This document shows, one piece after another, positions 35,681 to 64,000 of a DNA stretch of 64,000 nucleotides. The notes under the pieces are model-generated. The model saw only the letters and a program-made list of their open reading frames with translations. It did no database searches and was not told the DNA's origin. This DNA comes from Rhizophagus irregularis (taxonomy: Eukaryota; Glomeromycota; Glomeromycetes; Glomerales; Glomeraceae). The stretch is from assembly GCF_026210795.1 (NCBI RefSeq), contig NC_089439.1, positions 992,001 to 1,056,000 on the forward strand. The letters run 5' to 3'. The stretch's first letter is position 1. Every line of letters begins with the position of its first letter. Position numbers and translations under genes: made by a program.

Positions 35681-36180
35681 GTCGTCGGGCTGGATGTGGG
35701 TCTCGCTACCGCTCCACCCACCTCGGCCTCATGGCCTCGCAGTACCTCCTTCCCCCCTACGGGGGATCAGGAATCCCCATATATCCGCCACAATCTGGGA
35801 CAACATATGGAACAAATATATATACCAAATAACTAGAAAACAATAGAAAAGGAAGGAATAATGGATATAATGAGAGGGTTGTCCCGGATGTGGCAGATGT
35901 GGCAGATGTTTCAGAAAAAATATGAGAGGACATCCCCCCAGAAAAAGTTTTATTTTTACCCCCCAGATCCGCCACATCCGGAACATCTGGAATAAGTCAG
36001 GATTCCGTCTAATAATCTATTGGAAGCAGTGAGACAGCAAACCAGGTAAATTAGTAGGTAAGCCCCTAGAAGGTCTATAGAGCCAGTAAGACCAACCCCG
36101 TCCCACCCCCGTCAGAAAAAATAAGTAATTGAACAATGGGTATTGAGAATAGAGCATATCAAGATAAGTTTAGAAGACAG
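35669..36180. other. GC-rich patch and non-coding junction
   Basis: From 35669 to 35790 the sequence is strikingly GC-rich for this window ('GGATCGGCGTCGTCGGGCTG', 'CCTCGGCCTCATGGCCTCGC'). It is followed (35880-36000) by imperfect inverted copies of CCGGATGTGGCAGATGT / ACATCTGG that may be part of a small element, and then by C-rich sequence up to the Zn-ribbon gene. No gene recognised. Confidence 0.4.
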
Positions 36181-36182
36181 TA

Positions 36183-36503
36183 CTAATCCGTCTTCCTCTT
36201 TTTTGCCTCCTTAAGGCATTTATCAATACACTGTTTACACGCATTATCAGAATCTAAGATTTTCTGTCCAAGTTTTTTGCATTGCCGATTGTAAGCCGTC
36301 TGCTGTCTCTTAGCAGCGGTTTCTTTCTTTTTCTCCTTAGTCTTCTTCTTGATTACCCAGTCTATTCCAGTAAAAGTATTCTTATGCATACCACAAATTG
36401 TGCAGTCACCATGCAGCCGGTAACGCCCATTTGTAGTCATATCTTGTATTTCACTAGCAGTCTCAGTTTCCTTCTTGCACTTTAGGCAGTAAAAACGTGT
36501 CAT
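36183..36503 (-). CDS. Small Zn-ribbon protein (DUF5679-like)
   Basis: 106 residues. The N-terminus reads MTRFYCLKCKKETE, then GRYRLHGDCTICGMHKNTF, giving the pairs CLKC and CTIC expected of a zinc ribbon. This pattern (YCxxC...GxxxxxGxCxxCGxxK) is common in short proteins of large DNA viruses and Polinton-like elements. The rest is lysine-rich with a second cysteine group (CKQCIDKCLKEAKKRK). It probably binds DNA or acts in transcription; that is inference. The start codon is 44 bp from the divergent integrase ATG at 36548. Confidence 0.65.
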   Translation of the reverse strand: MTRFYCLKCKKETETASEIQDMTTNGRYRLHGDCTICGMHKNTFTGIDWVIKKKTKEKKKETAAKRQQTAYNRQCKKLGQKILDSDNACKQCIDKCLKEAKKRKTD

Positions 36504-36547
36504 TTTAAGATTTGAAGTCTAAAACCATTCCTTTAATTTGTTGTAAT

Positions 36548-37639
36548 ATGTCACACTTAGAGAATTACTATAAGTACTACAATCTCTCCGGAGTACCAGC
36601 ACGAATTCTAAAAGGTGAAGAGCACTACAACCTATACAAAAAGCCCCTAAAGGAAAAGTCAACAGAACGCCCAAAGGTAATTGTATGGAAACCAAATGCA
36701 ACACATCAGGCAGATCTTGCAGAGATGCCAGTTGACCCCAAAGGATTCCACTATTTTCTCGTAGTGGTGGAAGTTGCAGGAAAGAGAGTTGATGCAGAAC
36801 CCCTAAAGGATAAGACTGCAAATAGAGTTCTAAACGGGTTTGTCAAAATCTACAGAAGAAATCGTATTAAGCCACCAACACACAGACTGGAGACAGACTC
36901 CGGATCAGAATTCACTAACGACCAGGTACGTGATTTTTTCCTGAACAGCCTAGGGGTAATGATGAGGTTCGGAGAGCCAGGAAGGCATAAACAGCAATCT
37001 TATGCTGAAAGAGCTATCCAAGCCATCCAAGAACCCCTTCTTAAACGAATGGTAGCACAGGAGTTGAAAACCGGGGTGACATCCGTGGAATGGTCAGAAG
37101 ATTTCCATAATATAGTGAGTAAAGTAAATGAACTCTGGCAGAGAAATCCCCCAGACATTCCGACAGGATCACCCAAAGTGTCAAAAAAGACGGATCTCCT
37201 CTCTGAAGGAGCACGTGTCAGAGTCAAGTTAGATGAACCTATTTCAGTACTCGGTAATAAACTTCACGGAAAATTCCGTACAGGAGACATAAGATGGAAC
37301 CCAAACATTCGTGTAATCAAAAAAATGATACTCTCACCCGAACAGCCTCCTACATATCTTCTTAATGGACCACATGGTCGATTAGGTGTATCCAGATGTG
37401 CATATACCCGAAAGGAATTGCAAGTAGTTCCTATTAATGAAAAGCCTCCACCTGACTCTGTGATAAGAGGACAACCTGAAAGATTTGTTCCTGAGCAGAT
37501 ACTTCGGCATCGCATTAGAAAAGGTCAAGACCAGTATTTGGTTAAGTGGGAGCGCTATCCAGACACTGAGGCTTCTTGGGAACCTGCTGACCGGTTGAAG
37601 GAGGATGTCCCTGACTTAATTCGCAAATTTTGGGAATAA
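36548..37639 (+). CDS. Retroviral-type (rve) integrase with chromodomain
   Basis: I start at the ATG at 36548, which gives 363 residues. Catalytic residues of the integrase core are visible as QADLAEM (D56), ETDSGSEF (D117) and SYAERAIQ (E154), a DDE triad with a spacing of 36 between the last two. After a linker with an SH3-like region ('LSEGARVRVKLDEP'), the C-terminus ends in a chromodomain (QYLVKWERYPDTEASWEPAD). Polinton integrases have this layout. It would join element ends to host DNA, and the chromodomain may direct it to marked chromatin. The gene ends 25 bp from the end of the opposing protease ORF. It lacks the usual neighbour of an LTR-element integrase (no reverse transcriptase), so a Polinton origin is the better reading. 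Confidence 0.9.
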   Translation: MSHLENYYKYYNLSGVPARILKGEEHYNLYKKPLKEKSTERPKVIVWKPNATHQADLAEMPVDPKGFHYFLVVVEVAGKRVDAEPLKDKTANRVLNGFVKIYRRNRIKPPTHRLETDSGSEFTNDQVRDFFLNSLGVMMRFGEPGRHKQQSYAERAIQAIQEPLLKRMVAQELKTGVTSVEWSEDFHNIVSKVNELWQRNPPDIPTGSPKVSKKTDLLSEGARVRVKLDEPISVLGNKLHGKFRTGDIRWNPNIRVIKKMILSPEQPPTYLLNGPHGRLGVSRCAYTRKELQVVPINEKPPPDSVIRGQPERFVPEQILRHRIRKGQDQYLVKWERYPDTEASWEPADRLKEDVPDLIRKFWE

Positions 37640-37664: not shown

Positions 37665-38404
37665 TTATTTTTTATCCCCTCGATTAGCATCAGGAACTAT
37701 CGGGATAAAAACATTCTTCCCATCACAGGTAAAGGCTATATGTTCACGTGATTCATGGACATCATAATTGTAACGTTTCAGACACGTTCGGCTTAACCCA
37801 ATTTCCCTATGCTTGTAACCACTTAAGACTGCAAGGTCCTCAGTGATAGCATAATCAGGGGTAAGTTTGATTGTCACTCCCTTTACCATGCCGAATGTCC
37901 TACCTGTTCCTGAAGCACCAGATATGTTATATGTAATACTCTTGTCAATATCCAACCCTAATTCCTCAGCAGCTTCTCTCTGAATAAAAGACGCATTAGC
38001 ACAAGTGTCTGCTAAACACTGAATTGCTATTCCATTAACCTTCCCATCCAGTGCTAAAAGATCTTTAGTATTCTCTAAACGAGCTATGTCAATATCCATA
38101 GGATCATCTACCCTGATATCCTCTTCTTGTTCCTCCTCAACTAGGTCCTCCGGAATCTCTGTGACTTTTCTAGCAGACAATAACTCCTCCTGAAGAATCT
38201 CACGGAGTAATTTCCTAAAGTCTGCAGACCTTAACAGGCTTAATAAATCATTCTTAGTAACAGCTTTTGCAGGTGTAGACTTACTACCAGTAACTTTCAC
38301 AGGAATCTTAACAGGGGTTGCTTTGCCTTTCAATGGCACACTAGAAGAGCTAACTGCTGTCTTATTTGGGGACGACTTAAGAAGTTTTGAGATACTCAAA
38401 CCTA
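37665..38404 (-). CDS. Retropepsin-like aspartyl protease ORF (reached by -1 frameshift)
   Basis: About 244 codons with no usable ATG before DPMDID near codon 101. The N-terminal part is basic and proline/serine-rich, followed by helices and an acidic patch. The protease-like core begins LDGKVNGIAIQCLADTCANA, where D131 is the expected catalytic aspartate of a retropepsin monomer; the usual DTG/DSG is DTC here. A hydrophobic continuation (ASFIQREAAEELGL) is typical of retrotransposon proteases. The reading frame is exactly the -1 frame of the short ORF upstream, with A AAA AAG at the junction, so expression as a Gag-Pro extension is likely. Whether DTC is active is unknown. Confidence 0.7.
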
Positions 38405-38527
38405 CTTTTTTTTTGACCCAACACGAACCATATAGACATCACCATCTTTTTCTCTCAATTCTACCTTTTCACCAAAACTCGCAGTATCAATGTCCATAGC
38501 ATCATTATTAAGATCGAGGTTTCTCAT
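38402..38527 (-). CDS. Short bridging ORF between Gag and protease
   Basis: Starts with ATG at 38527 (MRNLDLNNDAMDID) and ends VGSKKK with TAG at 38402-38404. It lies in the same frame as the Gag ORF, separated only by TGA (38531-38533) and one codon. Its last codons form the heptamer A AAA AAG directly before its stop. It can be the readthrough continuation of Gag, a separate short peptide, or a segment cut off by a recent stop mutation. The DAMDID motif recurs as DPMDID in the protease ORF. Confidence 0.5.
   Translation of the reverse strand: MRNLDLNNDAMDIDTASFGEKVELREKDGDVYMVRVGSKKK
38405..38411 (-). promoter_or_regulatory. -1 frameshift heptamer A AAA AAG
   Basis: On the minus strand the zero-frame codons are TCA AAA AAA AAG TAG. 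A -1 slip on A AAA AAG gives GTA GGT TTG AGT as the next codons, which is the protease frame. The heptamer stands immediately before the zero-frame stop, the classical place for such a signal. I did not fold the downstream sequence to look for a stimulatory structure. Confidence 0.65.
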
Positions 38528-38530
38528 TGC

Positions 38531-39832
38531 TCAGGCCAAATCCAGATCATCACGTCTATCTTTAGCCTTCTGAAGTTGTTTTGTAAGTATTTTAGACGTC
38601 CCACTTTTATATCCCATAATAAGATCAATAGCATTTTGATGATCATCCAAAGTCCACTCAGGAGCATCAGGGTCATCACCAACATCATGATCTACATAAC
38701 CATCATCCCAATCAGGATCCTGAGAATCCTGAACAACACGTCTCTGTGGTTTTGGTCGAACAGGTTTAATCTGCTGTCTATAGACTGGTGGATTACGAAC
38801 TGGCCGAGCCTGTAATTGTTTAAATTGCACCTGAAAATTCTTGGTAAGTTCCTCAGCTTGAGCCTTAAGTAACTCTTGTAATTGTTCTTGAGTAACCCCA
38901 GATGACTTTGATGTCAGTACGACAGGTTCCTGTTTTCCTAACGGAGGTTGAGTTACATCACTGTAATCTGCTTGAAGTCGTCGATTTCTATCTTGTAACC
39001 CCAAGCGCATTTCAGCCCTTCTCCGTTCTAAATTTCTCAAATGTTTAACCAAGTCATCAGGATTAAGATTACTAAACCTTTCTGCTTCAAAAATATTATC
39101 AGCCGAAAGACCTCTAAAGAACTGGTCGATAATAAGATCATCAGTTAGTTTTAGTAATTTTCCAGCTCTCTTTACAGTTCTATAAAATGCATCGACTGGC
39201 TCATTTTCCTGATAAAGACTGTTAAAACGGATACGTTTCTTTTCATCTAAAATAGTTGGGAATTGTGTTCTAAGCCAATAAAATGCCTGGTTAGGTTTAA
39301 CACCTGGAAAAACTATAGAACGATTATTATTAGCAGCAACACCAGCATCTGCAGTAGCTGGAGCAGCTCTATCTGTCGAACGAGCACTAGCTCTTCCCCA
39401 AGCTTTATCTCCACCTATTAAATCATGGGTAGGAATAAATGCTGCTCTAATAGTTACTAATGCATTAGCTGCATCTGTAGCATGAACATGTGCTTCAGAC
39501 CCATTTACATAGGTACCTGCATTTGGTCCTCCTGCACCTTCTGGTATTACTAATGCTACAAAAGCAGCTAAATTAGCTCCACCTCTTGAAGTGATACCAG
39601 AAAGTTCCCAATTTTTTCCTGTAATTTCTCGATCAAACCATTCAGCCGCTTCACCAGCCATGCAGCTTCTAAGTATACCCATAGCTCTTTTCCAAGACTC
39701 TGGTGGTCCTCCAGCAGCATATGGGTTAAGATTAATAGTATCAAGATAACCCATGTAAAGCCTAACAAATGTATCAACATCATCAGTAGCTTTACCCTCA
39801 AAAATCGGCAATCCTATCGCAGTGGTAGCCAT
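38531..39832 (-). CDS. Gag-like capsid protein (Ty3-type)
   Basis: 433 residues from the ATG at 39832, or longer if made by frameshift from the preceding ORF. The N-terminal region reads LPIFEGKATDDVDTFVRLYM with 'AAEWFDREITG' after it, and the middle has RFNSLYQENEPVDAFYRTVK with DQFFRGLSADNIF following; this is the pattern of a retrotransposon Gag capsid domain. Between these lies an unusual glycine/alanine-rich insert (residues about 85-160). The C-terminal part is basic and proline-rich (QIKPVRPKPQRR), with an acidic tail, and has no CCHC zinc knuckle. It overlaps the coiled-coil ORF by 19 bp. Its place inside a Polinton-like gene set, without reverse transcriptase, is unexpected; capsid formation is inferred from the family. 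Confidence 0.75.
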   Translation of the reverse strand: MATTAIGLPIFEGKATDDVDTFVRLYMGYLDTINLNPYAAGGPPESWKRAMGILRSCMAGEAAEWFDREITGKNWELSGITSRGGANLAAFVALVIPEGAGGPNAGTYVNGSEAHVHATDAANALVTIRAAFIPTHDLIGGDKAWGRASARSTDRAAPATADAGVAANNNRSIVFPGVKPNQAFYWLRTQFPTILDEKKRIRFNSLYQENEPVDAFYRTVKRAGKLLKLTDDLIIDQFFRGLSADNIFEAERFSNLNPDDLVKHLRNLERRRAEMRLGLQDRNRRLQADYSDVTQPPLGKQEPVVLTSKSSGVTQEQLQELLKAQAEELTKNFQVQFKQLQARPVRNPPVYRQQIKPVRPKPQRRVVQDSQDPDWDDGYVDHDVGDDPDAPEWTLDDHQNAIDLIMGYKSGTSKILTKQLQKAKDRRDDLDLA

Positions 39833-40611
39833 ATCGACTCTAGTGGATTGTTTAAAAGAGGTGGAGGAGGGTTCAATTGTCTAATTCGAAACCATTGTAC
39901 CTGAATTCTAAGAGCAGCTATCTGTTGGAAAAGTCTATTTCTAAGTCTCCCTAATGTCTGAATCCCAAAACGCACCCTATTATTAGCATGTGCTAGCTGT
40001 GCATTAACCTGTCCAAGTTGCGCATTAACCAATACAAGTTGTCCTCCAGTCCGAGTAGCCCTCAGCCGCCAATGATTTAAAAGGATATTACCACGATTCA
40101 CAGCATTTTGAGCCTCATTACGATCCCTTACTGCTTGAGTATAATCTGCTTGTAATACATTATGTTCATGTCGTGCCTGATTACGTTCACCTATAGCCCG
40201 TCGACGAAGCTCTACCATAGTATCATAATCTCTTTGCAGGTTATGGTTTTCTTCTATGAAATTATCATTGGCAGCACGTATAATAACTAATTGACGTTCT
40301 AAATTAGTAAACGTTTCATCAAATGCATTTATCTTACCTTGTGCAAAAACTAACAAATCTTTTGTAATACCAAGTTCTTCATGTTTTGCTTTACAGCGAT
40401 ACATTAATATATTAATAATATGTTTGATTTGATTATTTGCCTCCTGTATCTCTGAATCAACAGTTAAACGACCCCTGGTAGTCAATAAATTTGCATGAGC
40501 CTTAAGTATTCTAACTAATTCATCATCGTCTTTTTCATTGACCAAGTGTGCAGGAGGCGGTCCAGTAGGTTCTGAAGGAGTATAAACTGGAATTGGTGTT
40601 GATGTCGACAT
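39814..40611 (-). CDS. Coiled-coil protein preceding Gag
   Basis: 265 residues, ATG at 40611. After a proline-rich start (IPVYTPSEPTGPPPAH), most of the protein is helical with heptad spacing and many Q, N, R and E residues (ERNQARHEHNVLQADYTQ; QLGQVNAQLAHANNRVRF). No enzyme motif. It ends PPPPLLNNPLESIWLPLR, and within that end lies T TTA AAC in frame, which would pass ribosomes into the Gag frame. It may form an N-terminal extension of Gag that promotes assembly (inference). The start is only 31 bp from the divergent ATPase start, so both genes share a very short promoter region. Confidence 0.65.
   Translation of the reverse strand: MSTSTPIPVYTPSEPTGPPPAHLVNEKDDDELVRILKAHANLLTTRGRLTVDSEIQEANNQIKHIINILMYRCKAKHEELGITKDLLVFAQGKINAFDETFTNLERQLVIIRAANDNFIEENHNLQRDYDTMVELRRRAIGERNQARHEHNVLQADYTQAVRDRNEAQNAVNRGNILLNHWRLRATRTGGQLVLVNAQLGQVNAQLAHANNRVRFGIQTLGRLRNRLFQQIAALRIQVQWFRIRQLNPPPPLLNNPLESIWLPLR
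39850..39856 (-). promoter_or_regulatory. -1 frameshift heptamer T TTA AAC
   Basis: On the minus strand the coiled-coil ORF reads CTT TTA AAC AAT. The heptamer T TTA AAC is in the correct phase; a -1 slip continues CAA TCC ACT AGA GTC GAT ATG GCT, which is the Gag frame with no stop before its ATG. The same heptamer is a well-known -1 signal of coronaviruses. No downstream pseudoknot was checked. Confidence 0.7.
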
Positions 40612-40642: not shown

Positions 40643-41374
40643 ATGGATCTTTATGTATACAATTTGGACGAGTACACGACTGACTCAAGACAAGGCAATG
40701 AGTTTGCTCCATCATGGCCCTTTCGATTAGCCGTAGCAGGTAGCTCAGACTCAGGTAAGACAACTATGATCATTAATTTGTTAATGGGTGACAAGAAAGC
40801 AAAGGAGAATGGTAATCGGTATGTACTATGTGATGCAGTACTTTTAGTTGGCAGATATCTTGACGAGCCGAAGTGGGCAGTTGTACATGATTTTTTCGAA
40901 GAGGAGAAGATCCCATTCACTGCAGTAACCCATAGTGAGATTCCAGAGATTGACTCCTTCGACCCTACTCAAGCTACTGTGGTAATCTTCGAGGATCTGA
41001 TGGATGCACCTAAAAAAATCCAGGATCTCATCACTGGTTACTTTACACATGGACGACACAAAAATATTTCATGTATTTATGTAGCCCAAAGATTCTTTGC
41101 CATTCCTAAGGCTATTCGAGAAAATGTTAACTACATCTCACTGCATGGAGGTCATGGGAGCCTTACAGATACCAAGAGAATCATCCGCCTATATACAGAA
41201 CAATCAGAGTCATTAGCACCAGTAATTGATGATCTTACTCTGCAACGTAAATTTGTAGTGTTTGATCTTAGACGGTCCAAAAGTGATCCACTGTCCATTC
41301 GAGTAAGATGGGATACTAGTCTCAGTTCTATCACAGAGCAATCTCAGTTCAATCCTAGTTCGATCTCAGTCTGA
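40643..41374 (+). CDS. A32/FtsK-HerA-like genome-packaging ATPase
   Basis: 243 residues from the ATG at 40643. Walker A is AGSSDSGKTT (residues 32-41), Walker B is TVVIFEDL (E117, D118), and a later 'CIYVAQRFFAIPKAIRENVN' matches the sensor region of poxvirus A32-like and Polinton ATPases (written CIYVAQRFFAIPKAI). In viruses this enzyme drives DNA into capsids; its presence implies that the ancestor made particles. The ORF ends in a run of CAGTTCRATC-like repeats at 41320-41395, and a second open frame with no ATG continues the coding sequence downstream (see 41305-43106), so the C-terminus may be longer than shown. Confidence 0.85.
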   Translation: MDLYVYNLDEYTTDSRQGNEFAPSWPFRLAVAGSSDSGKTTMIINLLMGDKKAKENGNRYVLCDAVLLVGRYLDEPKWAVVHDFFEEEKIPFTAVTHSEIPEIDSFDPTQATVVIFEDLMDAPKKIQDLITGYFTHGRHKNISCIYVAQRFFAIPKAIRENVNYISLHGGHGSLTDTKRIIRLYTEQSESLAPVIDDLTLQRKFVVFDLRRSKSDPLSIRVRWDTSLSSITEQSQFNPSSISV

Positions 41375-41551: not shown

Positions 41552-42833
41552 CAGTGTGTTGCAAAAAAAACCGGAATTTTATTCACATGACATAAATCGG
41601 ACTTACGTACCCAATTTGTATCCGATTTGGAAAATCTAAAATGGAAAATCGACATGACGATCATGACCATAAATCCCGACCTAATTCGTAAATAATATAT
41701 TTATGTTTTTCCGAGCTACTGCGCCGCAAAATGACAGTTTCAAAGAAAGAAAGGCAGCGACAAACAATTTTACAATTGTGGAGTGAGGGTATGCGTAAAG
41801 GGACTGAAATACACAAGATTACACGCATCCCACTCTCCACTATATATGATAATATTAAAAAGTTAAAAGAGGATAACATAGTAAACCGAAAAAAGGGAAG
41901 TGGTCGCCCAAGGAAAATTACCGGCAAATTTTCCAGGTCCCTTGGACAAAGTATCCGAAGAGATACATCAGTTCCAACGAGGACTTTGGCCAAAAAATTG
42001 GGCCAAATGGGCCTTGAAGTATCCCACTCGACAGTTTCAAGGCACTTAACTGTCCATGGCTATAAAAAATCACTTCCAAGGGCGACCCCAATGCTTACTG
42101 CTGCGCATAAGCAAAAACGTATCGAATGGGCGCAGCAGCACATTAATGATAATTGGAACACAACACTTTTTTCGGATGAAACAGCCTTCCAACTCTTCCG
42201 GAACACTGTGAAGCGTTGGCATAAGAAAATTCGGCCAATACGCCCCATGCCAAAAGACAGAACAAAGATTTTTGCATGGGGCGGATTTTGCGTAACGGGC
42301 AAAACAAGTTTGTTTTGCTTCCGTCGAATAATGAATGCTGAATTTTATGTTGAGATCCTTGAAAATCATATTCCGGAGATTGATGCAATGCTCGGTGATG
42401 ATTGGCGGCTCCAGCAAGACAATGACCCGAAGCATACTAGCCGTCTTGCTAAAGAATTCCTCCAAAACAATGTCCCGGAAGTCATGGATTGGCCCTCAAA
42501 TAGTCCTGACTTAAATCCGATAGAAAATTTATGGGCTATTGTTAAGGGGAATGTGGAGCGCCGAATGCCAAAAAATCTCAATGAATTGGAGAGTTTTATG
42601 GCAGAGGAATGGTCGGCAATTCCGGATACCGTGATAAAGAATCTCGCCGGTTCAATGAAACGACGTTGCGAGCTAATTATCGAAAATAATGGAGAACGAA
42701 TCTCCTATTAAATTATATTAATAGAAAGAGCTGGTTTCTAGCTCTTAAATAAAAAAAAATTTACTATGTTTTTATATTCTCAATGTGAAGTTATGGCCGT
42801 TTACTTTATTCCGGTTTTTTTTGCAACACACTG
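41552..42833 (+). mobile_element. Complete Tc1-like transposon, 1282 bp
   Basis: Perfect 26-base inverted ends begin CAGTGTGTTGCAAAAAAAAC, with TA at 41550-41551 and 42834-42835. It carries one intact transposase ORF and no internal damage, so it may be a recent insertion. Confidence 0.95.
41731..42711 (+). CDS. Tc1-like DDE transposase
   Basis: 326 residues from the ATG at 41731, with no stop or frameshift. The N-terminal part has two helix-turn-helix regions (KGTEIHKITRIPLSTIYDNI and TRTLAKKLGQMGLEVSHSTV) separated by an AT-hook-like GSGRPRKI. The catalytic triad is visible as FSDETAF (D149), QQDNDPKHTS (D230) and DLNPIENLW (E265), i.e. D,D34E as in Tc1. It cuts and pastes the element at TA sites. 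Protein length is normal for the family. Confidence 0.95.
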   Translation: MTVSKKERQRQTILQLWSEGMRKGTEIHKITRIPLSTIYDNIKKLKEDNIVNRKKGSGRPRKITGKFSRSLGQSIRRDTSVPTRTLAKKLGQMGLEVSHSTVSRHLTVHGYKKSLPRATPMLTAAHKQKRIEWAQQHINDNWNTTLFSDETAFQLFRNTVKRWHKKIRPIRPMPKDRTKIFAWGGFCVTGKTSLFCFRRIMNAEFYVEILENHIPEIDAMLGDDWRLQQDNDPKHTSRLAKEFLQNNVPEVMDWPSNSPDLNPIENLWAIVKGNVERRMPKNLNELESFMAEEWSAIPDTVIKNLAGSMKRRCELIIENNGERISY

Positions 42834-43695: not shown

Positions 43696-44277
43696 CTATT
43701 CAGAGCAGTCCTTGCACAACTTGTCCGTTAAGTTACTTGGGCTTACAGGCATGAGACATTCCCTACACAACTCAATATTAAGCTCTGCAAGTCTCGGGGT
43801 ATGGTCCTCCAAAGTTCGTGGACGACTGGAAGGACCGGAGGAAGGTGTTCTGTTAGTCGTATCTTGCTGTAAGATAAAATCATCATATTCATCTTGGTCA
43901 GCCTGAATAGCAGTCCTGATTTGTTGTATATCATTGAAAGTTAACCGCTGCCCATCAAGATTTTCCTCATTATAGCGTGTTTCATTGATGATTTCCTCTA
44001 TAAGCGCCTCTTCTTCATAATGGACAAGGTAGTAATCCTCAACTACCTCATAGTCACTCTCAATCAGTCTATAATATGTTCTAGTACCACGTCGAACATA
44101 ACGTCCTGTATCTGTATTTAAATATACAGGTTGCTCTTCAGGTGGAGGTGCAGTTTGTCTACGGACAAGCCTTCCATCAATATAATCATGGGATTCCATA
44201 ACTATTCGATTAAAGGTATCTCCACCGATAATAATTGGACGTCCAGTTATAGGGTTAGCTATATAAGGGTAAGACAT
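43696..44277 (-). CDS. NPITGR-motif (2-cysteine-adaptor-like) protein with zinc-like tail
   Basis: 193 residues. The start MSYPYIANPITGRPIIIGGD contains NPITGRPI, the hallmark of the short adaptor domain (NPxTGRxI) found in several large DNA virus proteins. The middle is acidic with Y/E-rich runs, and the end has LCRECLMPVSPSNLTDKLCK, with DC following, four cysteines in two pairs that may bind zinc. The N-terminal cysteine of the adaptor domain is not seen here. The CxECLMP tail is shared with the gene at 27936. Role unknown; probably a virion or scaffold component by analogy. Confidence 0.6.
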   Translation of the reverse strand: MSYPYIANPITGRPIIIGGDTFNRIVMESHDYIDGRLVRRQTAPPPEEQPVYLNTDTGRYVRRGTRTYYRLIESDYEVVEDYYLVHYEEEALIEEIINETRYNEENLDGQRLTFNDIQQIRTAIQADQDEYDDFILQQDTTNRTPSSGPSSRPRTLEDHTPRLAELNIELCRECLMPVSPSNLTDKLCKDCSE

Positions 44278-44678: not shown

Positions 44679-47600
44679 TTAAAATCGACACACCACCCTG
44701 CTAAAGCTGTTAGTAAGTTGCACCGTTAGACGACCCATAAAACCCGAATAGTGATTAAACCAAGGCAAACCATATTTCATCGAGTTCTTTAAATAATCGA
44801 CGTCGGAGTCACGTGCGGCGTCGGAAAGGGTCGGAGGAGGTAAAGTTGAGAAAGGTAAGTACGTAGACTTCGGCAAATTTGAAGGCCGAGAAAGTTTGAG
44901 TTTATGAGTAATATTCATCGCGTCTTCCCATTTAGATTTATCATAGGAGCGCGGTAGCCAAATTCGTTTTCTAATCTTTTGGATAAAGTGATTGTGGATA
45001 GCAGAGATAACCTTCATCGCAGAGTTATGTGGAATAGAAAGTTCTTCAAAAAATTCGACAAAGGATTTCGGAAGGCAGCCACGGACAAGGCTATATGAAG
45101 TCCAATTTGAAGAAGAAAAGGACCAACAAGGAAGAGATTTAAATTTGTTAATAATTAAAGAGGGATCTTTCTTAACGAGATCACCAGCTTCTTGAAGTTT
45201 GTTGATAAAGTGATGTTGGTAGGAGAAGAGTATCTGTTCCATAGCGATTCGTCTACATTTGCACATAAACAAGTGCATGAAATCTTCCTTGGAGTCGAGG
45301 CACGAATGACACAATAAGATGTCAATATACAAGTCTGGGCGGATTCTTTTAAGATGTTCCAAGGTAGGCAAATCTTCCAAAAAGAGTTTGAATTTGAAGG
45401 TGCGATGAAAGGAAGCATGAGCACGAGTAAATGAAGCATCATGCTGAGGTTCAGAATTTAGCGAGAACCAGGTAAGATCCCAATCAATCACGAAATCTGA
45501 GATAGAGGATAAAGCAATGGTAAAGTTAAAACGCGATAAACGCGTTAATCTACGCATCCACAGCATTTGCGAATATTGCTTAAATAGGCGTCGTGGGTTG
45601 GATTCGCATAAAATATCATCATATTTTAATAGGAAATCGTGAGGAGATACTTGATCCAGATCAGAAAGAAGAATTGCTGAAGGAGAAGTATGCGCAGAGT
45701 TGGCCAGAGAGTCCGCGTAGTCATTATAGAAATTACCAGAGTGACCTTTCACTTTAACAGCCGTGACGGATAAAGATTTGGAGGAAATGAGACGTTCAAT
45801 AATAGCCCAGAGTTCAAAATTGGTGGTCTTGTAATAAAGCCTACTATTGGAATAAGAAAGGGTAGCACATAGACGAAGACCATCTATGGCAGATTGAGAG
45901 TCAGTATGAATAGTGACCGTTGAAAATGGAGGAGTGACTGTAAGAGCAGCATGTATAGCGGCGATTTCAGCTCTTGTAGAAGAAGGCCAATTGTGAAAAA
46001 TTCCATGAGCGTGAGCAGCGATAGATTGGAAAAAACCAGCGCCATCAAGGACTTGTACCCAAGACCAACCCATAGAAACATCAGGAGTGCCAAGGTTAAT
46101 TAAAGAACCATCAGTATAAAAACAATAATGATTATCAGGAGGAGTCGCTAACGGTGAAACAGCAAAAGCAAGAGAGGCAGCCGAATCCAAGGAGGGAGAA
46201 GGAGAAGGAGAAGGGAAAGTAACCACATCTTCTTGTGAAAAATTAGGTAGAATATCCAAACGACCATAGTAGGATCTTACAATCTCGTCAAGATCTGCCC
46301 AGGTAAAAGGAGAAGTAATAGTGGTGGTGTCATGTCTAATACGCTCCTGCGTTGTTGGGAGAATTAAAGATCTAAGAGGAGGAAGTTTAGGGATGATACA
46401 TAAAGGAGTAACATCTGTTGGATTGCTTTTAGTATGGGTAACCGGTACATGTTTAGAACAACCGGGACAAGGAGTAAGCGTGATAACATCATTAGGTCGA
46501 GTCACACAATCAGAGGTCCAATAGACAATCTTGCAAGAATATTGTTGTTTGCTAAGTTGTTTTCCAAAAAGAGGAGAGCCATCATCGTCCAAAGTCACGA
46601 TCCATTTCATGGATTTTCTGGAGGAACCAAAGGCTGGAGCCAAATCAATGTTTGAAGGGATTGCTTCAGAAGAAAATTGATCCAAGAGCAGAGAATTGGA
46701 ATTTGGAACAGTGACGCATTGGTGGATGTCATTGAACCATTTATGCGGGAGGACTCGATGGCCTTTCCTACTTGATAGATTGGATAAATAAACATTCCAA
46801 GTGATCATATGGGTTCCGTGAGGCGTGATGAATTGAGATAGGTAATAGAGTTGCAAACTTCTTAGACGTCGGAAATAAGATATAAAAATTTTTGGAGTCA
46901 TCACTTCAAATAAAGGCGTGTGACCATTAGGTACGGTGAGGTCAGACGAGGATGAAAATCGAGAACGTGACAACTTGAAAGGAGTGGTGGTCAGGAGAGC
47001 AATAGTGCAAGTGATATAATCCTGTTTAAAAGCGAAAAGTTTAGACCATAAAGTCCAATCTTTAACTAACAAGGGAGAAATGGGAATCAAAAAAGAAAAT
47101 TGAATTAAACGTAATCTATATAAAAATAAATTTTTCATAAAAAAAGAGGAAGAATTAGCTAATAAAAACAAATTAGTTAAATGTGTTTGTGATTGGTGAA
47201 AAAATAAATTAATCAATTCCAAGCCTTGAGATAGAAACAAAATGGAATCAGGGAGTACGCGTGAAAAATTGGCCTTATGTTTAACCAGGGAACGGATACT
47301 GCTGGTTGCCGAGGCACATTCAGATTCAGAGAGGTGTGTGACTTGCATGCGATATTCCAATTTTGGAATAAGGACAGTGTTGTGTAAATAAACTACTTGT
47401 TTAGCAGATAATTTGGCAGGACGAACGGTAGCAGCGAAAGAGTTACATTCTCGAGCAACTTGCTTTCTGACAAAATCACGAGATCCAGCGACATTAAACC
47501 AGACGCCCAGGAAGCGAAAAGAACTATTCATGGAAATAGGCACAATAGAAATGGAAGGAACTTTGTTCAGTCCAGATAATTGCAAGTCAAACACGACTGG

Positions 47601-50300
47601 AGAAGGTGAAGGAGCTGAAGTGGGAGGCAACGAATTAGTAATTAAAACATATTTGTTGTGGTTAGCGGAAGTATTATTAATCTGATAAAATTCTTCCGTA
47701 ATATAAAGCATCGATTCCATTCCAGCTTTAGATGACGAAATTAAAGTGGAATCGTCCATAAAGACCAAGTTGTTCATACGTAATCCATCTGGACTTGTCT
47801 CAGCCAAGGGATTAGATAAAGGAGGAGCATGAAGTATATATGGATCCATCATTTCATTCTTAAGAACAGTCAATAAAGGGTCTATATATATAACCCAGAG
47901 TAAAGGAGAGATAACTTCGCCTTGATCTATACCAATACGAACACGGTAAGAAGGTGTAGTTCCATGAGCAGTAAAAACGCAATTAGAGCGCTTCATAAAA
48001 AGGGATAAAATAAACTTGGTGGCAGAAGCGGGAAGTTTAATGCGTTCTAAAGCAAAATGCAACATCTTGAGATCAACCAAGTCGAAAGCCTTCGAAATAT
48101 CTTGTGAAAGGATCCAAAGCGGCGATTTGTTGACATGAGCATCATGGATAATAGATTCCAGGACGACAATAGGGTCGCGACAAGAACCACCAGGGAGACT
48201 GGCGAAGTTTTCTCCTTTGAGAACTTCATTCGAAGCCAAAATGGAAGCGAGACGATTATAAAAGAGTTTGACCAAAGATTTTCTAATTACTTCAAGTAAA
48301 GTAATAGGTCTTGTATTCTTAAGTTGACATTTCCATTCGTGAGGTTTAGGGATAGGGAAAACCATAGCTTGACGCCATAAATCAGGAATGTCTGCAGTGT
48401 GGAAACACGATTGGACCAGGATTAAAACCAGAGCAGTAGCGTTTGAACCCAGATGCTTAAGCATCTCATAAGTAATCATAGAAGGACCAGGAGCTTTGTC
48501 GTTAGGCATAGAAGAGACCGTAGACAACCATTCTTCAAGAGTAGGAGGATCCAGCAAAGAATCATAAATAGAAGAATTCACATCATCCATAGGGCGATAA
48601 GCAGAAGACCATGTTTCAGGAAGAACTGAAATGTTATCAGGAGGAGATGATTTAATAGGTACGGAATTCTGGAAGTGGTTGATAACAGCGTCATCAATAT
48701 CATGCAGGTCCGTTAGAAGTTTAGGTTGTGTAGGGTGGTCGATAAAGACACGATCCAATGTAATACGACGTCGAGTCCTTGAGAGCGCTGAATTAATGAA
48801 TGAGGAAATATCAGATTCAAAATTGTTGTCCCTATCATCCAATTTGGCACGAATGGAAAAATCTTGAAAATCTTTTTCTTTGAGAAGAAGGAGGCCATAA
48901 AGGGCACTGGAAATAGTCTTTAAGGATTCTAGTAAAGAATTAAACCCGTCTTGCCTACATGTGGTTAAAGAAGTAGGTAAAATAAGGGGGGAAGGAATAA
49001 CCTTCTTATAAAGATGAAGAATTTTTTGAAGTCGAATGAAATGAGTGGACCAAACATGTTCATATCTATTAAAATATGTGGAAGGATATTTGCGCAATAA
49101 GCGTATCGAATGCAAAAGACGGCTGAGAAAACGATAATGTTGAGTTAAAGCTTCCAAATCTTTAGGCACCGTAGGTGTGTATTGATTACCGACCGTGACA
49201 GATGGAAGAGAAGCATTAGCAGCTTTCACGATATGAGAATGTAAGTATTCACATTGTTGATTGATGTGCCATGTTGAAAAAGTAGAAGGAAGAACGTCGC
49301 AAAATGAGTCAGTGTGAGTGGAAAAAGATTCCCATTGTTGAATAGTGACTGAATCAAATTTGAAAATGCGGCGAGTTCGACGTTGAAGTTGTTTAGCACG
49401 AGCAACCTTGATAGACGCAGCCAAGAGTGAATCATCAAAATACGTGATGACAGGATTGTGATCAGAAGAGCAGGTATCATGGGCGTCGAATATGTAGGAA
49501 GTGAGAGCAAAGCTTTTTAGCATCGGGCAGGACCAAACATAGTCTATGCGAGTAATCTGGTCATCACGGTGGAAGGTGCCTAGGGAATCAGAAGCATTAA
49601 CAGGAATGGTTTCTTCATAACCATGAGATAAAAGATGATGCAACAAACGATAAGACCGTTGAGAAGCAACAGAAGGGCGGTTAAAATAAATAGGGTAATA
49701 AGTATCTAAGTGCATATTAAAATCGCCACAAATGGCGTGATAAAAATTTTGTTGTTTAGTTTGCACTAATAATTGTAAAAGGAGATCGATAGTATCAGAT
49801 CGTAATTTAGAGTCGGAAATAGGAGGGATATATATAACAAAAATACGCAATTTAATGTTGCCTTTAAAATAAAGGTCAACAGATAAAATACGTGAGGAAT
49901 GTGAAACAAAATCTTGTACATGAGAAGCAAGAGAATTTTCAATAAAAAGGGAAACGCCACCAGTAGATTTGACTTGTTTAGTTTTATCTATGTCAGAGGA
50001 AAAGACAGTATAATTAGGAAGGCGTTTAGATAAAAAATGAATTTGTTTGGGGGGTAAATGGGTGTCTACAATGCCACCAAAGGAAATATGTTTCAGGTTG
50101 AAAAAGTTTGAAATTTGTTCAATTTTAACTTGACTATTATGGCGAAGGCCATTAATATTAAAGGATGAAATATTAAAGGAATTGGGAATAGGGGGGGAAT
50201 TTAATGTAGTAAATAAAGATTCATGTTCTGAAAAATTATAAGTATCTACAGGATTGAGTGGGTTTTGAACAAACGTATCATAATTAAAATTGTCAGACAT
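44679..50300 (-). CDS. LINE A ORF2: endonuclease / reverse transcriptase / RNase H
   Basis: 1873 residues without a stop. Order of domains: apurinic-type endonuclease (SFNINGLR about 46; CGDFNMHLD 191-199; SSDHNP with D280 and H281), reverse transcriptase (ISKAFDLVDLKMLHFAL; GIDQGEVISPLLWVIY; FMDDSTL with its DD at 849-850), RNase H (YTDGSLI with D1397; STRAEIAAIHAAL; HTDSQSA with D1467; NDYADSLAN), then a CHSCLDSKEDFMHLFMC finger-like group. It nicks DNA at the target and copies the element RNA there. Start ATG at 50300. One substitution in the RT (AFDLVD where copy B has AFDSVD) is notable but the catalytic aspartate is kept. Confidence 0.92.
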   Translation of the reverse strand: MSDNFNYDTFVQNPLNPVDTYNFSEHESLFTTLNSPPIPNSFNISSFNINGLRHNSQVKIEQISNFFNLKHISFGGIVDTHLPPKQIHFLSKRLPNYTVFSSDIDKTKQVKSTGGVSLFIENSLASHVQDFVSHSSRILSVDLYFKGNIKLRIFVIYIPPISDSKLRSDTIDLLLQLLVQTKQQNFYHAICGDFNMHLDTYYPIYFNRPSVASQRSYRLLHHLLSHGYEETIPVNASDSLGTFHRDDQITRIDYVWSCPMLKSFALTSYIFDAHDTCSSDHNPVITYFDDSLLAASIKVARAKQLQRRTRRIFKFDSVTIQQWESFSTHTDSFCDVLPSTFSTWHINQQCEYLHSHIVKAANASLPSVTVGNQYTPTVPKDLEALTQHYRFLSRLLHSIRLLRKYPSTYFNRYEHVWSTHFIRLQKILHLYKKVIPSPLILPTSLTTCRQDGFNSLLESLKTISSALYGLLLLKEKDFQDFSIRAKLDDRDNNFESDISSFINSALSRTRRRITLDRVFIDHPTQPKLLTDLHDIDDAVINHFQNSVPIKSSPPDNISVLPETWSSAYRPMDDVNSSIYDSLLDPPTLEEWLSTVSSMPNDKAPGPSMITYEMLKHLGSNATALVLILVQSCFHTADIPDLWRQAMVFPIPKPHEWKCQLKNTRPITLLEVIRKSLVKLFYNRLASILASNEVLKGENFASLPGGSCRDPIVVLESIIHDAHVNKSPLWILSQDISKAFDLVDLKMLHFALERIKLPASATKFILSLFMKRSNCVFTAHGTTPSYRVRIGIDQGEVISPLLWVIYIDPLLTVLKNEMMDPYILHAPPLSNPLAETSPDGLRMNNLVFMDDSTLISSSKAGMESMLYITEEFYQINNTSANHNKYVLITNSLPPTSAPSPSPVVFDLQLSGLNKVPSISIVPISMNSSFRFLGVWFNVAGSRDFVRKQVARECNSFAATVRPAKLSAKQVVYLHNTVLIPKLEYRMQVTHLSESECASATSSIRSLVKHKANFSRVLPDSILFLSQGLELINLFFHQSQTHLTNLFLLANSSSFFMKNLFLYRLRLIQFSFLIPISPLLVKDWTLWSKLFAFKQDYITCTIALLTTTPFKLSRSRFSSSSDLTVPNGHTPLFEVMTPKIFISYFRRLRSLQLYYLSQFITPHGTHMITWNVYLSNLSSRKGHRVLPHKWFNDIHQCVTVPNSNSLLLDQFSSEAIPSNIDLAPAFGSSRKSMKWIVTLDDDGSPLFGKQLSKQQYSCKIVYWTSDCVTRPNDVITLTPCPGCSKHVPVTHTKSNPTDVTPLCIIPKLPPLRSLILPTTQERIRHDTTTITSPFTWADLDEIVRSYYGRLDILPNFSQEDVVTFPSPSPSPSLDSAASLAFAVSPLATPPDNHYCFYTDGSLINLGTPDVSMGWSWVQVLDGAGFFQSIAAHAHGIFHNWPSSTRAEIAAIHAALTVTPPFSTVTIHTDSQSAIDGLRLCATLSYSNSRLYYKTTNFELWAIIERLISSKSLSVTAVKVKGHSGNFYNDYADSLANSAHTSPSAILLSDLDQVSPHDFLLKYDDILCESNPRRLFKQYSQMLWMRRLTRLSRFNFTIALSSISDFVIDWDLTWFSLNSEPQHDASFTRAHASFHRTFKFKLFLEDLPTLEHLKRIRPDLYIDILLCHSCLDSKEDFMHLFMCKCRRIAMEQILFSYQHHFINKLQEAGDLVKKDPSLIINKFKSLPCWSFSSSNWTSYSLVRGCLPKSFVEFFEELSIPHNSAMKVISAIHNHFIQKIRKRIWLPRSYDKSKWEDAMNITHKLKLSRPSNLPKSTYLPFSTLPPPTLSDAARDSDVDYLKNSMKYGLPWFNHYSGFMGRLTVQLTNSFSRVVCRF

Positions 50301-50347
50301 TAGAACACTATGATAATAAAGTACGGGGAAAGGAGGTGAGAAATCAG

Positions 50348-52480
50348 TTATTGCGAAGGAGCTGAAGCTCGATCGGAAGGAGAACCACCAAGAGAAGCAA
50401 TAAAACCTTGGATGGAACCAGTGAGTGATTGTAAAGTATCTTTAATCGCTTTTTGATCTTGAATAACGGAGTTCAATTCGTCTTGCGGGGAAGGGTTAGA
50501 AGTGGATGCGGAAGCAGAGTGTGAGGCTTTGTTGGATGTAGATGCAGAGGAAGAGGATTTCAGTGAACCAGCAGATAAAGGCGCATTGGGATGCTGGATT
50601 AAGGTGCCAGTGGTTTCAGGAGGGTCTTCTTCCATTCGATCAGGTTCAGTATTAACGACAGGTGCAGAGGGAGGATTGATGCCTAAATGGGCTTCAATAG
50701 CAGATAGCCGTTGATTGTTAAGTTCAAGATTTGAAATGCGGGATTCCACTCGAGCAACATCTTGTTGAAGATTCTTTAAAACATTAAGAATCTTAAGGGC
50801 AGCCTCAAGAGCATTAGGAGAATTCGGATCCAGGAGTGGAGCATGAGCATTGGACGAAAAGGAAACAGATCTATCTTTGCCTTTACGGTTGTTGGAAGGT
50901 GTACGTCCATGAGCAGTTGAGGAGGAGTTAGCTGAGCCAGAGGAGGAGGAGGGCTTAGCATTAATATTGGAATTATTATTATTAGATCTATTGGAGGTGG
51001 AATTAGAACGTTGAGCTGAAGCAGAATGATCCCGAGATTTAGATCGAGATCGAGAACGAGAATTATTGCGCGGCGTTCTTTGTTGGGTGGGCCTTTGGCC
51101 AATGTTGAAGCGTTCTTTAAGAGCAGCCACAGGGTCACGTGTACGTGAACGACCACGGCATTGGTTAAGCGAACAGGAGGTAGGAGCACAACCGAGTTTA
51201 CCACATCGGTGGCAAAGAGCTTTCGAATCGTTGGATGTACCCCATCGAAGAGTACGACCTTGGAAACCAATAGTCTGCTCTATAGCGGCATCCATCGTCT
51301 CTTGCGAGTTGAAGGTAACATAAGCCCAAGGTTTGGGTTTATAAGAATTTAGGGAAAGGGGGATGTTAATGGCTTTTGCTCCATGTTCTTTGACCAAAGG
51401 GGCGAGATGGATATCTTTGGTATTAGCGGGAAGTTCAGAGAGAACAGCTACAAACGCTCTACGAGCAGCTTTTTGATCCAAAGAGTAATGGCATGGGGTA
51501 ACACGTAAGCAGGTGGAAAAGCAGTAAACTGCCCATTGAGTAGTGAAACGGGAGATGGCATCAGCATGATCATAGACAATGCGAGCTTGTTGCATCTTAG
51601 CACCTTTCCTTGAGTAGAGATGAAGAGCAAGGAGATTGCCGAATTTCTTGAAGTAGGATTGGAGTTGCGGTTTAGTAATGAAGAAAGGTATATCCGTGAC
51701 TTGAATTGCACGGAGGTCTTCATCGGACCGGAGTTGTTTGGGATCGTATAGGTGGAATTGTAGGTCCGGAAAATCGGAGTGTGTGCTTCCAACACACAAA
51801 TCACGAGCCTCCGCAGTATGAAAATGTATGATGAGACGCTTAGCGTCCCCTGAACCAGTCATACGAGCCCGACCGGTATATGATTCGTAAGTTTCTAAAA
51901 ATAAATTGTTAACGGCATCTATAATTGCCTTATTAGTTTTAAGTTTTTCTAGAGTTTGGGGAGCGGAGTTGGGCGCAGCCGCAGCCAGGAAATCTTGACG
52001 ATTAATGGTAATGGTGGGGGAGGGATCAACAACCTGATCGGGCGATGTACCATCATTTACGTCCATATTAGGGGACGCGCTAGGGGATGAGTTGTTTTCT
52101 TTGTTTCTTGGTGCATGAATAGACGCGTTAGCTCCAGAGGACGCGTCTTGGCCAGGCGCAGTAGGCGCAGCAGAATTATTCGGGGTAGAAGCTTGAGTAT
52201 TTTCTTGGGCAGTGCTGCGGGAATTATTTTGTTGAGGAATAGCGGTCGAAGTTGAACCAACTAAACCACCGTCAGCCGGCGCGTCGGCAACGAAATCTTC
52301 ATAGTCTTCATCCATAGAGTCTTTTGTAATAATACGGGAACGTTTTTGGGAAGTGTTATCACTATCGGAACCAGAGTTGTCAGAGAGTTGTTTTTTATTA
52401 TTTTTCTTTTCTTGACGAGCAGCCTTATTACTGTTAGGGTTATAGCTGCCACCACCTCTTCTAGCAAGGTTTCTAGACAT
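50348..52480 (-). CDS. LINE A ORF1: RNA-binding Gag-like protein
   Basis: 710 residues. Low-complexity acidic and Asn/Ser-rich start, then two RRM-like domains ('TDIPFFITKPQLQSYFKKFG' near 260-325 and 'VAVLSELPANTKDIHLAPLV' near 345-405), a short CHRCGKLGCAPTSC finger (about 425), an SR-rich region (RNNSRSRSRSKSRDHS) and a C-terminal coiled-coil segment (VARVESRISNLELNNQRLS). Such proteins coat LINE RNA and carry it to the nucleus. Lies upstream of ORF2 with a 47-bp gap, so ORF2 is probably translated by reinitiation. Confidence 0.88.
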   Translation of the reverse strand: MSRNLARRGGGSYNPNSNKAARQEKKNNKKQLSDNSGSDSDNTSQKRSRIITKDSMDEDYEDFVADAPADGGLVGSTSTAIPQQNNSRSTAQENTQASTPNNSAAPTAPGQDASSGANASIHAPRNKENNSSPSASPNMDVNDGTSPDQVVDPSPTITINRQDFLAAAAPNSAPQTLEKLKTNKAIIDAVNNLFLETYESYTGRARMTGSGDAKRLIIHFHTAEARDLCVGSTHSDFPDLQFHLYDPKQLRSDEDLRAIQVTDIPFFITKPQLQSYFKKFGNLLALHLYSRKGAKMQQARIVYDHADAISRFTTQWAVYCFSTCLRVTPCHYSLDQKAARRAFVAVLSELPANTKDIHLAPLVKEHGAKAINIPLSLNSYKPKPWAYVTFNSQETMDAAIEQTIGFQGRTLRWGTSNDSKALCHRCGKLGCAPTSCSLNQCRGRSRTRDPVAALKERFNIGQRPTQQRTPRNNSRSRSRSKSRDHSASAQRSNSTSNRSNNNNSNINAKPSSSSGSANSSSTAHGRTPSNNRKGKDRSVSFSSNAHAPLLDPNSPNALEAALKILNVLKNLQQDVARVESRISNLELNNQRLSAIEAHLGINPPSAPVVNTEPDRMEEDPPETTGTLIQHPNAPLSAGSLKSSSSASTSNKASHSASASTSNPSPQDELNSVIQDQKAIKDTLQSLTGSIQGFIASLGGSPSDRASAPSQ

Positions 52481-52582
52481 GTTAGAAGGTATGAGTTGGG
52501 TAAAATATAAGAGTTGTTAGTACGAAGATATAAAATTTTCTTTCCGAAAATTTTTGGTTAATAGATCGGCGGTAAGAGATCT

Positions 52583-52610
52583 ATCAGTCCTTTTATCTAT
52601 CAGTCCTTAT
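52583..52610. repeat. Target-site remnant between the two LINEs
   Basis: The 28 bases ATCAGTCCTTTTATCTATCAG plus GTCCTTAT repeat the target string TATCAGTCCTTAT twice. This shows that each LINE is bounded by the same target sequence. Confidence 0.7.
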
Positions 52611-52881
52611 TAAGGCAAACATGGCATAGTAGCCTTTATCTTTATTAAATTTATTTAACGAACTTACAAAAATAAAATAAAATTTTCAAAGTACAAAAAA
52701 GAAAAATAAAATTAACTAAAAACAAAACTATATAGTCTCCAAAACAGTAATAAAGCTATAAAATTAATTCGAAAGGAAAAAAATCGCATAACATTAAAAC
52801 TATCCTGATCCCCCGCCTAGATATATTCCAACCTAAGAAGAAGCAACTATGCAAACAAACCAACGAACAATGCACCCATTA

Positions 52882-58503: not shown

Positions 58504-58550
58504 TAGAACACAATGATAATAAAGTACGGGGGAAGGAAGTGAGAAATCAG

Positions 58551-63907: not shown

Positions 63908-64000
63908 TTAATGTATTTATGAATTGTGTTCAGTTGTAATATAGGTTTTTTATACAAAAAATATAAGATAACTAAGAAGTGCTTATCTTATTAAAAGGAG
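63908..64000. other. Right edge, upstream of the polymerase gene
   Basis: AT-rich flank that should contain the polymerase promoter. The Polinton-like element probably continues beyond the window, and no terminal inverted repeat is visible here. Confidence 0.3.

Follow-up and report, generated by a model that had tools for sequence, protein, structure and literature searches.

The element described here lies on contig NC_089439.1 of Rhizophagus irregularis and spans positions 35681 to 67613 in the numbering of the window, the whole 64,000-nucleotide stretch of DNA that was analysed, with its right end beyond the window edge. It is of the Polinton/Maverick type with terminal inverted repeats (Table 1), and these enclose all of its genes, a point that the preliminary description of the locus had proposed to check. 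The open reading frames (ORFs) are positioned as that description had it, with 25 bases between integrase and protease and 31 bases between the coil-like ORF and the ATPase. The 6-mers flanking the element, TCGGCG and TCGGCT, a candidate for the 6-bp target site duplication expected of a Polinton, are equal at 5 of 6 positions in this one copy. Point changes and insertions, both LINE and mariner, have damaged the window copy, and the LINEs interrupt it; shorter repeat-bounded copies measure 14.3 kb.

Table 1. Features of the element, in window numbering.
Feature	Position	Strand	Evidence
Left terminal inverted repeat, 463 bp	35681..36143	+	97.6% identical inverted match
Small zinc-ribbon-like ORF, DUF5679	36183..36503	-	Pfam E 3.5e-17
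RVE integrase with C-terminal chromodomain	36512..37639	+	rve E 5.4e-9, Chromo E 2.2e-16
Retropepsin-like aspartyl protease, motif LADTCA	37665..38399	-	Asp_protease_2 E 6.7e-9 (Pfam), above cut-off
Run of nine A at Gag/protease junction	38406..38414	-	protease open in -1 frame
Gag-like capsid ORF, 433 aa in window copy	38531..39832	-	family profiles
Coil-like ORF, 265 aa	39814..40611	-	ORF list
A32-type packaging ATPase	40643..41374	+	Pox_A32 E 7.2e-10
Tc1/mariner transposase, an insertion	41731..42711	+	HTH_Tnp_Tc3_2 E 1.3e-14, DDE_3 E 2.3e-13
ORF without assignment, 186 aa	43090..43650	-	no Pfam family at E <= 10
ORF without assignment, 193 aa	43696..44277	-	weak 2C_adapt match, E 0.0017, below cut-off
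Two inserted LINE copies	44679..60683	-	1873-aa ORF twice and their first ORFs
F-box-like ORF, 138 aa	60933..61349	-	F-box E 0.0043, below cut-off
ORF without assignment, 156 aa	61443..61913	-	no Pfam family at E <= 1
Family-B DNA polymerase, viral/organellar type	62027..63907	-	DNA_pol_B_2 E 1.4e-7
Primase-helicase gene, 3' end (border approximate)	63908..64000, continuing to L069:2558	-	DUF5906 E 2.3e-17
Right terminal inverted repeat (partner)	67151-67613, outside window (L069:3151-3613)		inverted match to left repeat

The ATPase also matches phrog_2666, a terminase large subunit family (E 5.1e-9), and the primase-helicase gives a primase_Cterm match below the cut-off (E 3e-7). Neither a double-jelly-roll (DJR) capsid nor an Ulp1/adenain cysteine protease was matched in Pfam among the 14 ORFs of the element that were scanned, in agreement with the preliminary description, which had found neither in the window. 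It had also raised the case of a DJR gene just outside the window; reading on from the window edge as far as the right repeat revealed nothing DJR-like. A genome-wide search with PF21738 (DJR) gave no match, which is no proof, because nothing matched in its control genomes either. The element's own ORFs that were scanned contain no reverse transcriptase (RT) or RNase H, and the RT ORFs present in the window belong to the LINEs, so that the earlier remark on a Gag without an accompanying RT holds for the element itself.

The terminal inverted repeat is listed in 40 copies in the R. irregularis genome, and 12 of the 17 inverted repeat pairs found among the matches listed span 14.3–14.9 kb. Inside these 17 pairs, the matches listed include Gag in all 17, the ATPase in at least 15, the integrase in at least 14, and the family-B DNA polymerase (PolB) and the protease in at least 11 each. 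Genome-wide, 99 Gag matches are listed, and for 83 of the 97 compared a listed ATPase lies within 6 kb, an association that goes beyond chance. The co-occurrence count took in 97 of the 99 Gag matches, 97 of the 152 listed ATPase matches (A/B type), 70 of the 71 PolB matches and a subset of the 113 integrase and more than 150 protease matches, and its figures are therefore lower bounds. Subtracting the counted genes, the repeats and four small gaps from a 14.32-kb copy leaves about 0.9 kb.

The Gag module was found in copies read from four families (A to D), whose ATPases are about 40–90% identical. Related Gag proteins are present in families B (L074), C (L070, L071) and D (L072), in the copies read from C and D the protease, integrase and ATPase lie next to Gag, and relatives of Gag occur across Glomeromycotina. 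Relatives in viral contigs were sought by ATPase, Gag and PolB, and none was confirmed. Among the listed D-type Gag matches, 42 of 76 had no listed ATPase within 7 kb, in a count that left out the A/B-type ATPase matches and kept 56 others. Between families A and B, dN/dS is 0.36–0.38 for Gag (dS about 1.0) and 0.08 for PolB (dS 0.84), and within family A, pN/pS is 0.42 for Gag and 0.13 for the ATPase, calculated from copies without in-frame stops (Gag 17, ATPase 26, protease 19, coil 19). Judged by these ratios, purifying selection acts on both Gag and the ATPase. The preliminary description had named related Polintons without the Gag block as a finding that would speak against it; with Gag in every repeat-bounded copy found, we consider Gag almost certainly an integral part of the element.

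The likeness of this protein to the Ty3 capsid is weak for single proteins and better for profiles. The Ty3-type Gag pattern reported earlier is weak for the window protein alone, which scores below the Pfam cut-off for Retrotrans_gag (E 0.021; 15.5 bits against 24.1), and the family D protein gave no single-sequence Gag match. It becomes good with the family profiles: the Gag profile has the PEG10 capsid as the best of its four matches in the PDB (E 0.0018), and the capsid (CA) profile, run against 272 ORFs, recovers its own sequences and the four Ty3 Gag ORFs included among them, and no others (E about 1e-6; next-best ORF 0.18). As these four are 94–99% identical members of one family, they amount to one test, not four. 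The alignment of the CA profile with Ty3 runs in order over both lobes (hhalign probability 92.7), with some 90–100 extra residues between the lobes relative to Ty3 Gag; the second lobe alone reaches 3.7 bits. A full A1 Gag alignment against one Ty3 Gag gives a probability of 4.9, and a combined Gag alignment including the coils places PEG10 (E 0.12) behind coiled-coil proteins in the PDB. A-type and D-type Gag match each other with a probability of 100 (E 1e-51), and the family C copy L070 has a CX2CX4HX4C knuckle, as does most of the alignment of D-type relatives. In family D an N-terminal coil-like part and Gag form one 698-aa ORF, to whose N-terminus the window coil ORF shows no significant pairwise match. 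Taken together with the protease, these profiles make homology to a retroelement Gag-protease very probable.

Retropepsins usually carry DTG or DSG. The protease, rightly described before as an aspartyl protease of DTC type, has the motif LADTCA in 28 of 30 family A loci, and since families A and B read DTC in this place we are unsure of its predicted activity. The junction between Gag and protease, which is absent from the preliminary description and new here, consists of a run of A with Gag ending at it and the protease open in the -1 frame, an arrangement present in families A to D. The run is nine A long at 24 of 30 family A loci and at each of the loci read from the other families (one B, two C, one D). 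Of 30 copies, 11 have a Gag of 476 aa; that of the window copy is ended upstream of the run by a stop at 38531–38533.

We suggest that the protease could be made through a -1 slip at this run. Production of Gag-protease by splicing instead, with an intron that removes the nine A and an unspliced message that yields Gag alone, is a possibility to which we give somewhat less than an even chance, and it would concern the expression step only. Some deposited models, P0123 with its 920 aa and 49 member sequences among them, do fuse coil, Gag and protease without the nine A, but gene predictors often bridge frame changes by false introns. The RNA 3' of the run gave no structure signal at five loci (z -0.41 to 1.39, with mononucleotide shuffles and only 38 bases for the B locus), which fits splicing. 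Against it, nine A followed by GT is common to copies of all four families although the next stop varies (TAG, TAA, TGA), no run of eight or more A occurs outside the junction in the window ORFs of the element (9,043 sense bases) or in 13.4 kb of LINE ORFs, and 13 of 19 metagenomic Gag relatives have KKK or KKR at their end.

We propose, with a probability of roughly 0.6, that the element belongs to a Polinton/Maverick lineage, found in arbuscular mycorrhizal fungi, whose usual DJR capsid and Ulp1 protease have given way to a Ty3-type Gag and a retropepsin. In the most likely mechanism the integrase would insert element DNA with inverted-repeat ends, the polymerase and primase-helicase would copy it, and Gag would be made together with less Gag-protease, the latter by the -1 slip or by splicing out of the run. 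Gag would then assemble into a shell, the ATPase would drive element DNA into it, and the protease would cut Gag. Gag is probably the structural protein of a particle, and that its shell is filled with element DNA has, in our view, slightly better than even odds. Of the earlier idea that DNA is packaged in a captured retroelement capsid, what stands is an integral, conserved and selected Gag-protease module in a Polinton with inverted repeats; the homology would naturally be read as capture from a retroelement.

That the element is a capsidless transposon, whose Gag-protease is an accessory while no DNA is packaged and the ATPase has another role, appears unlikely to us. Gag-derived proteins are able to take other roles, which counts in its favor. 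The Gag-protease might, for instance, act as a nucleoprotein on transposition intermediates, coating or trafficking them, or assist in target choice. Polintons without a capsid gene are, moreover, already known (PMC4028283, PMC7805220). However, the packaging-type ATPase is strongly constrained beside Gag (pN/pS 0.13) and the protease is retained too. According to PMC4028283, nine Polintons without a capsid gene tend to have lost ATPase and protease as well, unlike the present element, which keeps both functions beside Gag.

It is improbable that the protein is a helical protein other than Gag, similar to the Ty3 capsid by chance or convergence: the weak single-sequence scores would allow it, but the profile matches to PEG10 and Ty3, the knuckle and the retropepsin adjoining downstream argue against it. 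A retrotransposon remnant inserted by chance can be dismissed, even though LINE and mariner insertions do occur in the window copy, by the presence of Gag in all 17 repeat pairs found and in families A to D, by selection, and by the lack of any RT or LTR seen with Gag.

The R. irregularis Polinton has been recorded as lacking a known capsid (PMC7805220), and Polintons of this kind, that of R. irregularis included, have been read as shifted to a transposon life (PMC4028283, PMC7805220). With a candidate alternative capsid module kept together with a packaging ATPase, the question of transposon or virus therefore becomes testable. Since the element has a retrovirus-like capsid and protease where its relatives have unrelated ones, it may be a DNA virus with a swapped shell. 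To the full reading, a DNA virus lineage of Glomeromycotina with Polinton (varidnavirus-type) replication and packaging, a Gag capsid and retropepsin maturation via a -1 slip at nine A, we give an even chance. If DNA is packaged, capsid and replication types would be exchangeable between virus realms, and DNA loading of a Gag shell would be a new subject; if the element is a DNA virus, it would represent a natural capsid swap across realms, with an ATPase pumping double-stranded DNA into a Gag shell.

Among known systems, the element resembles Polintons/Mavericks (Polintoviricetes) in its inverted repeats, RVE integrase, family-B DNA polymerase, A32-type ATPase and size of about 14 kb, but differs in having Gag and a retropepsin, with no DJR capsid or Ulp1/adenain protease found in 14 ORFs. 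With Ty3/gypsy elements (Metaviridae) it shares a retropepsin, Gag-like and protease ORFs in different frames and, in its relatives, the CCHC knuckle, and its Gag resembles their two-lobed capsid at the level of profiles. Ty3/gypsy elements have long terminal direct repeats in place of inverted ones; neither RT and RNase H nor LTRs were found as parts of the element itself, which has a DNA polymerase and a packaging ATPase. Caulimoviruses and foamy viruses are a precedent for DNA inside a Gag-type shell, but both depend on reverse transcription and lack a packaging ATPase; we know of no precedent for an A32-type ATPase loading a Gag shell. Virophage elements with inserted retrotransposons (PMC8547959) likewise combine retroelement genes with a Polinton-like DNA element, but the cases described there are whole Ngaro elements with RT present as insertions, whereas in R. 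irregularis the Gag-protease is part of the element.

We describe a DNA element of the Polinton/Maverick type with terminal inverted repeats, genes of the integration, replication and packaging types, and a Gag-protease module. The preliminary description had raised terminal inverted repeats around all genes, and a 463-bp pair with 97.6% identity does bracket the element, its right member lying in L069, the locus to the right of the window. Outside the repeats stand TCGGCG and TCGGCT, equal at 5/6 bases, which would be compatible with a 6-bp Polinton target duplication as read in this one copy, and the flanks look like two parts of one LINE, the RT side on the left and the RNase H side on the right. 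The window occupies C11:992001-1056000. Across the genome (146.7 Mb, 32 contigs) the terminal repeat has at least 40 copies (40 scored among 268 candidates), and the copies listed make up 17 inverted pairs whose members are under 36 kb apart. Of these, 12 span 14.30-14.89 kb; the pair of the window copy spans 31.9 kb because two LINEs and one mariner lie inside it. All 17 pairs enclose Gag among the matches listed, and the same matches place the ATPase in at least 15, the integrase in at least 14, and the family-B DNA polymerase (PolB) and the protease in at least 11 each, these four counts being lower bounds whose lower figures are no sign of gene absence.

From left to right the element reads DUF5679 ORF, integrase with chromodomain, protease, Gag, coil, ATPase, the inserted mariner, two unknown ORFs, the two inserted LINEs, F-box-like ORF, a further unknown ORF, PolB, primase-helicase and a last small ORF. 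Repeats and counted coding sequence amount to 12.8 kb (helicase measured from the polymerase border); a 14.32-kb copy has 1.48 kb beyond this, of which four small gaps take 0.54 kb, and the remaining ~0.94 kb leaves little room for a double-jelly-roll (DJR) capsid gene. The earlier observation that a DJR capsid and an adenain protease were not found is upheld, as neither a DJR nor an Ulp1/adenain family matched in the 14 ORFs scanned with Pfam, including the L069 side, at an uncontrolled sensitivity for distant DJR proteins. The window copy is not intact: besides the insertions it has an early Gag stop (after residue 433; 11/30 copies have 476 residues) and an altered polymerase motif. The changed position lies in what we take to be a catalytic motif, and the one family B copy read does not show the change. 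An OTU protease domain is described in Polinton polymerases in the available part of PMC11071308.

Coordinates of features in the element, its relatives and the genome
Feature	Sequence	Position	Remark
Left terminal repeat	window	35681-36143	
Right terminal repeat	window numbering	67151-67613	L069:3151-3613
ORF	window	43696-44277	weak 2-cysteine adaptor match, E 0.0017
F-box-like ORF	window	60933-61349	under Pfam cut-off; perhaps of host origin
Polymerase	window	62027-63907	Cys...His pattern in N-terminal part resembling OTU protease domain, by eye only
Integrase, family C	L070	4039-5688	no chromodomain match
Integrase, family D	L072	1062-2096	no chromodomain match
Second A run, family C	L070	735-743	
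Second A run, family C	L071	268-277	
Second A run, family D	L072	5974-5981	
Gag row	C9	1635064	
Gag row	C10	2673523	
Gag row	C3	729721	

The window copy belongs to family A, one of four sister families (A to D). Family B is ~86-91% identical to it in the ATPase, ~90-94% in the integrase, ~84-88% in the protease, ~84-89% in the polymerase and only ~50-55% in Gag; Gag thus stands apart from its neighbours (~84-94%), though its dS between A and B (1.00-1.04, from eight A copies each paired with a single B copy) is similar to that of the polymerase (0.84, one pair). The corresponding dN/dS values are 0.36-0.38 for Gag (0.28-0.31 over its first 280 codons, same copies) and 0.08 for the polymerase, and Gag therefore has a similar divergence time and is under constraint, changing 5-6x faster at amino-acid sites, which might fit a shell protein. 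Within family A, pN/pS is 0.42 for Gag, 0.44 for the coil, 0.56 for the protease and 0.13 for the ATPase. In families C (L070, L071) and D (L072), whose ATPases are 43-44% and 40% identical to that of the window copy, one cluster holds coil-Gag, protease, integrase and ATPase; the integrase lies there between coil-Gag and ATPase, whereas in A it lies beyond the protease. The family C integrase is homologous to that of A (E 8e-14), and by eye the C and D integrases have an extra, nuclease-like C-terminal part. The Gag regions of both C loci are interrupted by frame changes; family D Gag is a single 698-aa ORF, and its relatives, 56 deposited proteins known from proteins alone, come from R. clarus, Glomus cerebriforme, Entrophospora, Paraglomus, Diversispora and Gigaspora. 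The annotation of Rhizophagus irregularis DAOM 197198 contains Gag relatives with identities of up to 97%, which makes R. irregularis very probably the host of the element. The three tabulated Gag rows and others are ~40% identical to family D Gag in frames of 784-1081 aa, with no ATPase within 7 kb among the matches listed.

We suggest that Gag would form a shell, that the ATPase would load it and that the protease would mature it. As far as the available text of each source goes, the Polinton set is polymerase, RVE integrase, Ulp1 protease, ATPase and capsid proteins (PMC11071308, 'gag' being absent from its main text), a Polinton of Glomus intraradices (R. irregularis) has no detectable capsid gene, none having yet been found there (PMC7805220), and Maverick is among the recently expanded families of R. 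irregularis, with many low-methylation copies (PMC8647823). The full-text literature within reach, which excludes most subscription papers and Repbase reports, showed no paper that presents Gag as a Polinton component. Alternatively, Gag could be an accessory, non-packaging protein. In the genome, 42/76 Gag rows have no ATPase within 7 kb among the matches listed, where the Gag list is the best 64 of 583 candidates and does not include the Gag-bearing C loci, and the remaining Gag rows listed are mostly at ~40% identity. At least 20/56 divergent ATPase rows lie no more than 7 kb from a Gag among the matches listed. The best argument for a Gag shell loaded by the ATPase, albeit an indirect one, is the ATPase itself: nine Polintons without a capsid gene also lack ATPase and protease, read as concerted loss in the accessible part of PMC4028283, whereas in this element an ATPase and a protease accompany Gag, as seen in full readings of families A, C and D and, by coordinates, in B.

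The likeness to Gag is weak in single sequences and better in families. The Ty3-type Gag pattern of the preliminary description did not carry the window protein past the Pfam cut-off for Retrotrans_gag (E 0.021), and the family D protein as a single sequence gave no match to it; the assignment fared better with families, 18/31 members of the A-type alignment matching at E <= 1 (best 0.0041) and 10/25 of the D-type alignment at E <= 0.1 (best 2.2e-4), with zf-CCHC in 8/25 of the latter. The two alignments match each other over 295 columns (probability 100, E 1e-51). The PEG10 capsid is the top PDB match of the A profile (E 0.0018), covers the second lobe of the Gag capsid region (CA) and falls to E 0.12 once coil-bearing sequences join. 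A CA profile from 32 relatives, run on 272 ORFs of the window, L069 and four of eight Ty3 loci, matches itself and then, at 21.4-22.1 bits and with E values from 1.1e-6 to 1.7e-6, four Ty3 Gag ORFs, which are 94-99% identical and therefore one test; the next match has 4.9 bits (E 0.18). Both lobes align in order (16.0 and 3.7 bits), with ~90-100 extra residues between them, and hhalign detects the first (probability 92.7). A misassigned helical protein would be in keeping with the single-sequence scores and sits poorly with this ordered match.

A run of A stands at the Gag/protease junction in 30/30 family A loci read: 24 loci have nine A, 3 have eight, 2 have seven and 1 has ten. Nine A put the protease in the -1 frame relative to Gag and seven fuse it to Gag (L012, L021); by coordinates it is in the -1 frame in 26/33 A and 16/24 B copies compared. 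Exactly nine A followed by GT also occur at the junction in L074 (B), L070 and L071 (C) and L072 (D), though the stop codon after the run differs (TAA, TGA). No run of eight or more A occurs in 9,043 sense bases from eleven element ORF stretches of the window, junction excluded, or in 13.4 kb of LINE ORFs, and 13/19 metagenomic A-type Gag relatives end in KKK or KKR. The run looks like a kept slip site that would give some Gag-protease from much Gag, with transcriptional slippage, frameshifting or splicing as possible routes; RNA structure downstream of the run gave no signal and public gene models splice the run out, both of which count against a classical ribosomal frameshift. Retroviruses likewise make little Gag-protease beside much Gag, which for the element we infer from the nine-A run and the -1 frame, and families C and D carry another run of 8-10 A where the protease ends, with one more short open frame behind it, which resembles a gag-pro-pol arrangement with two slip sites.
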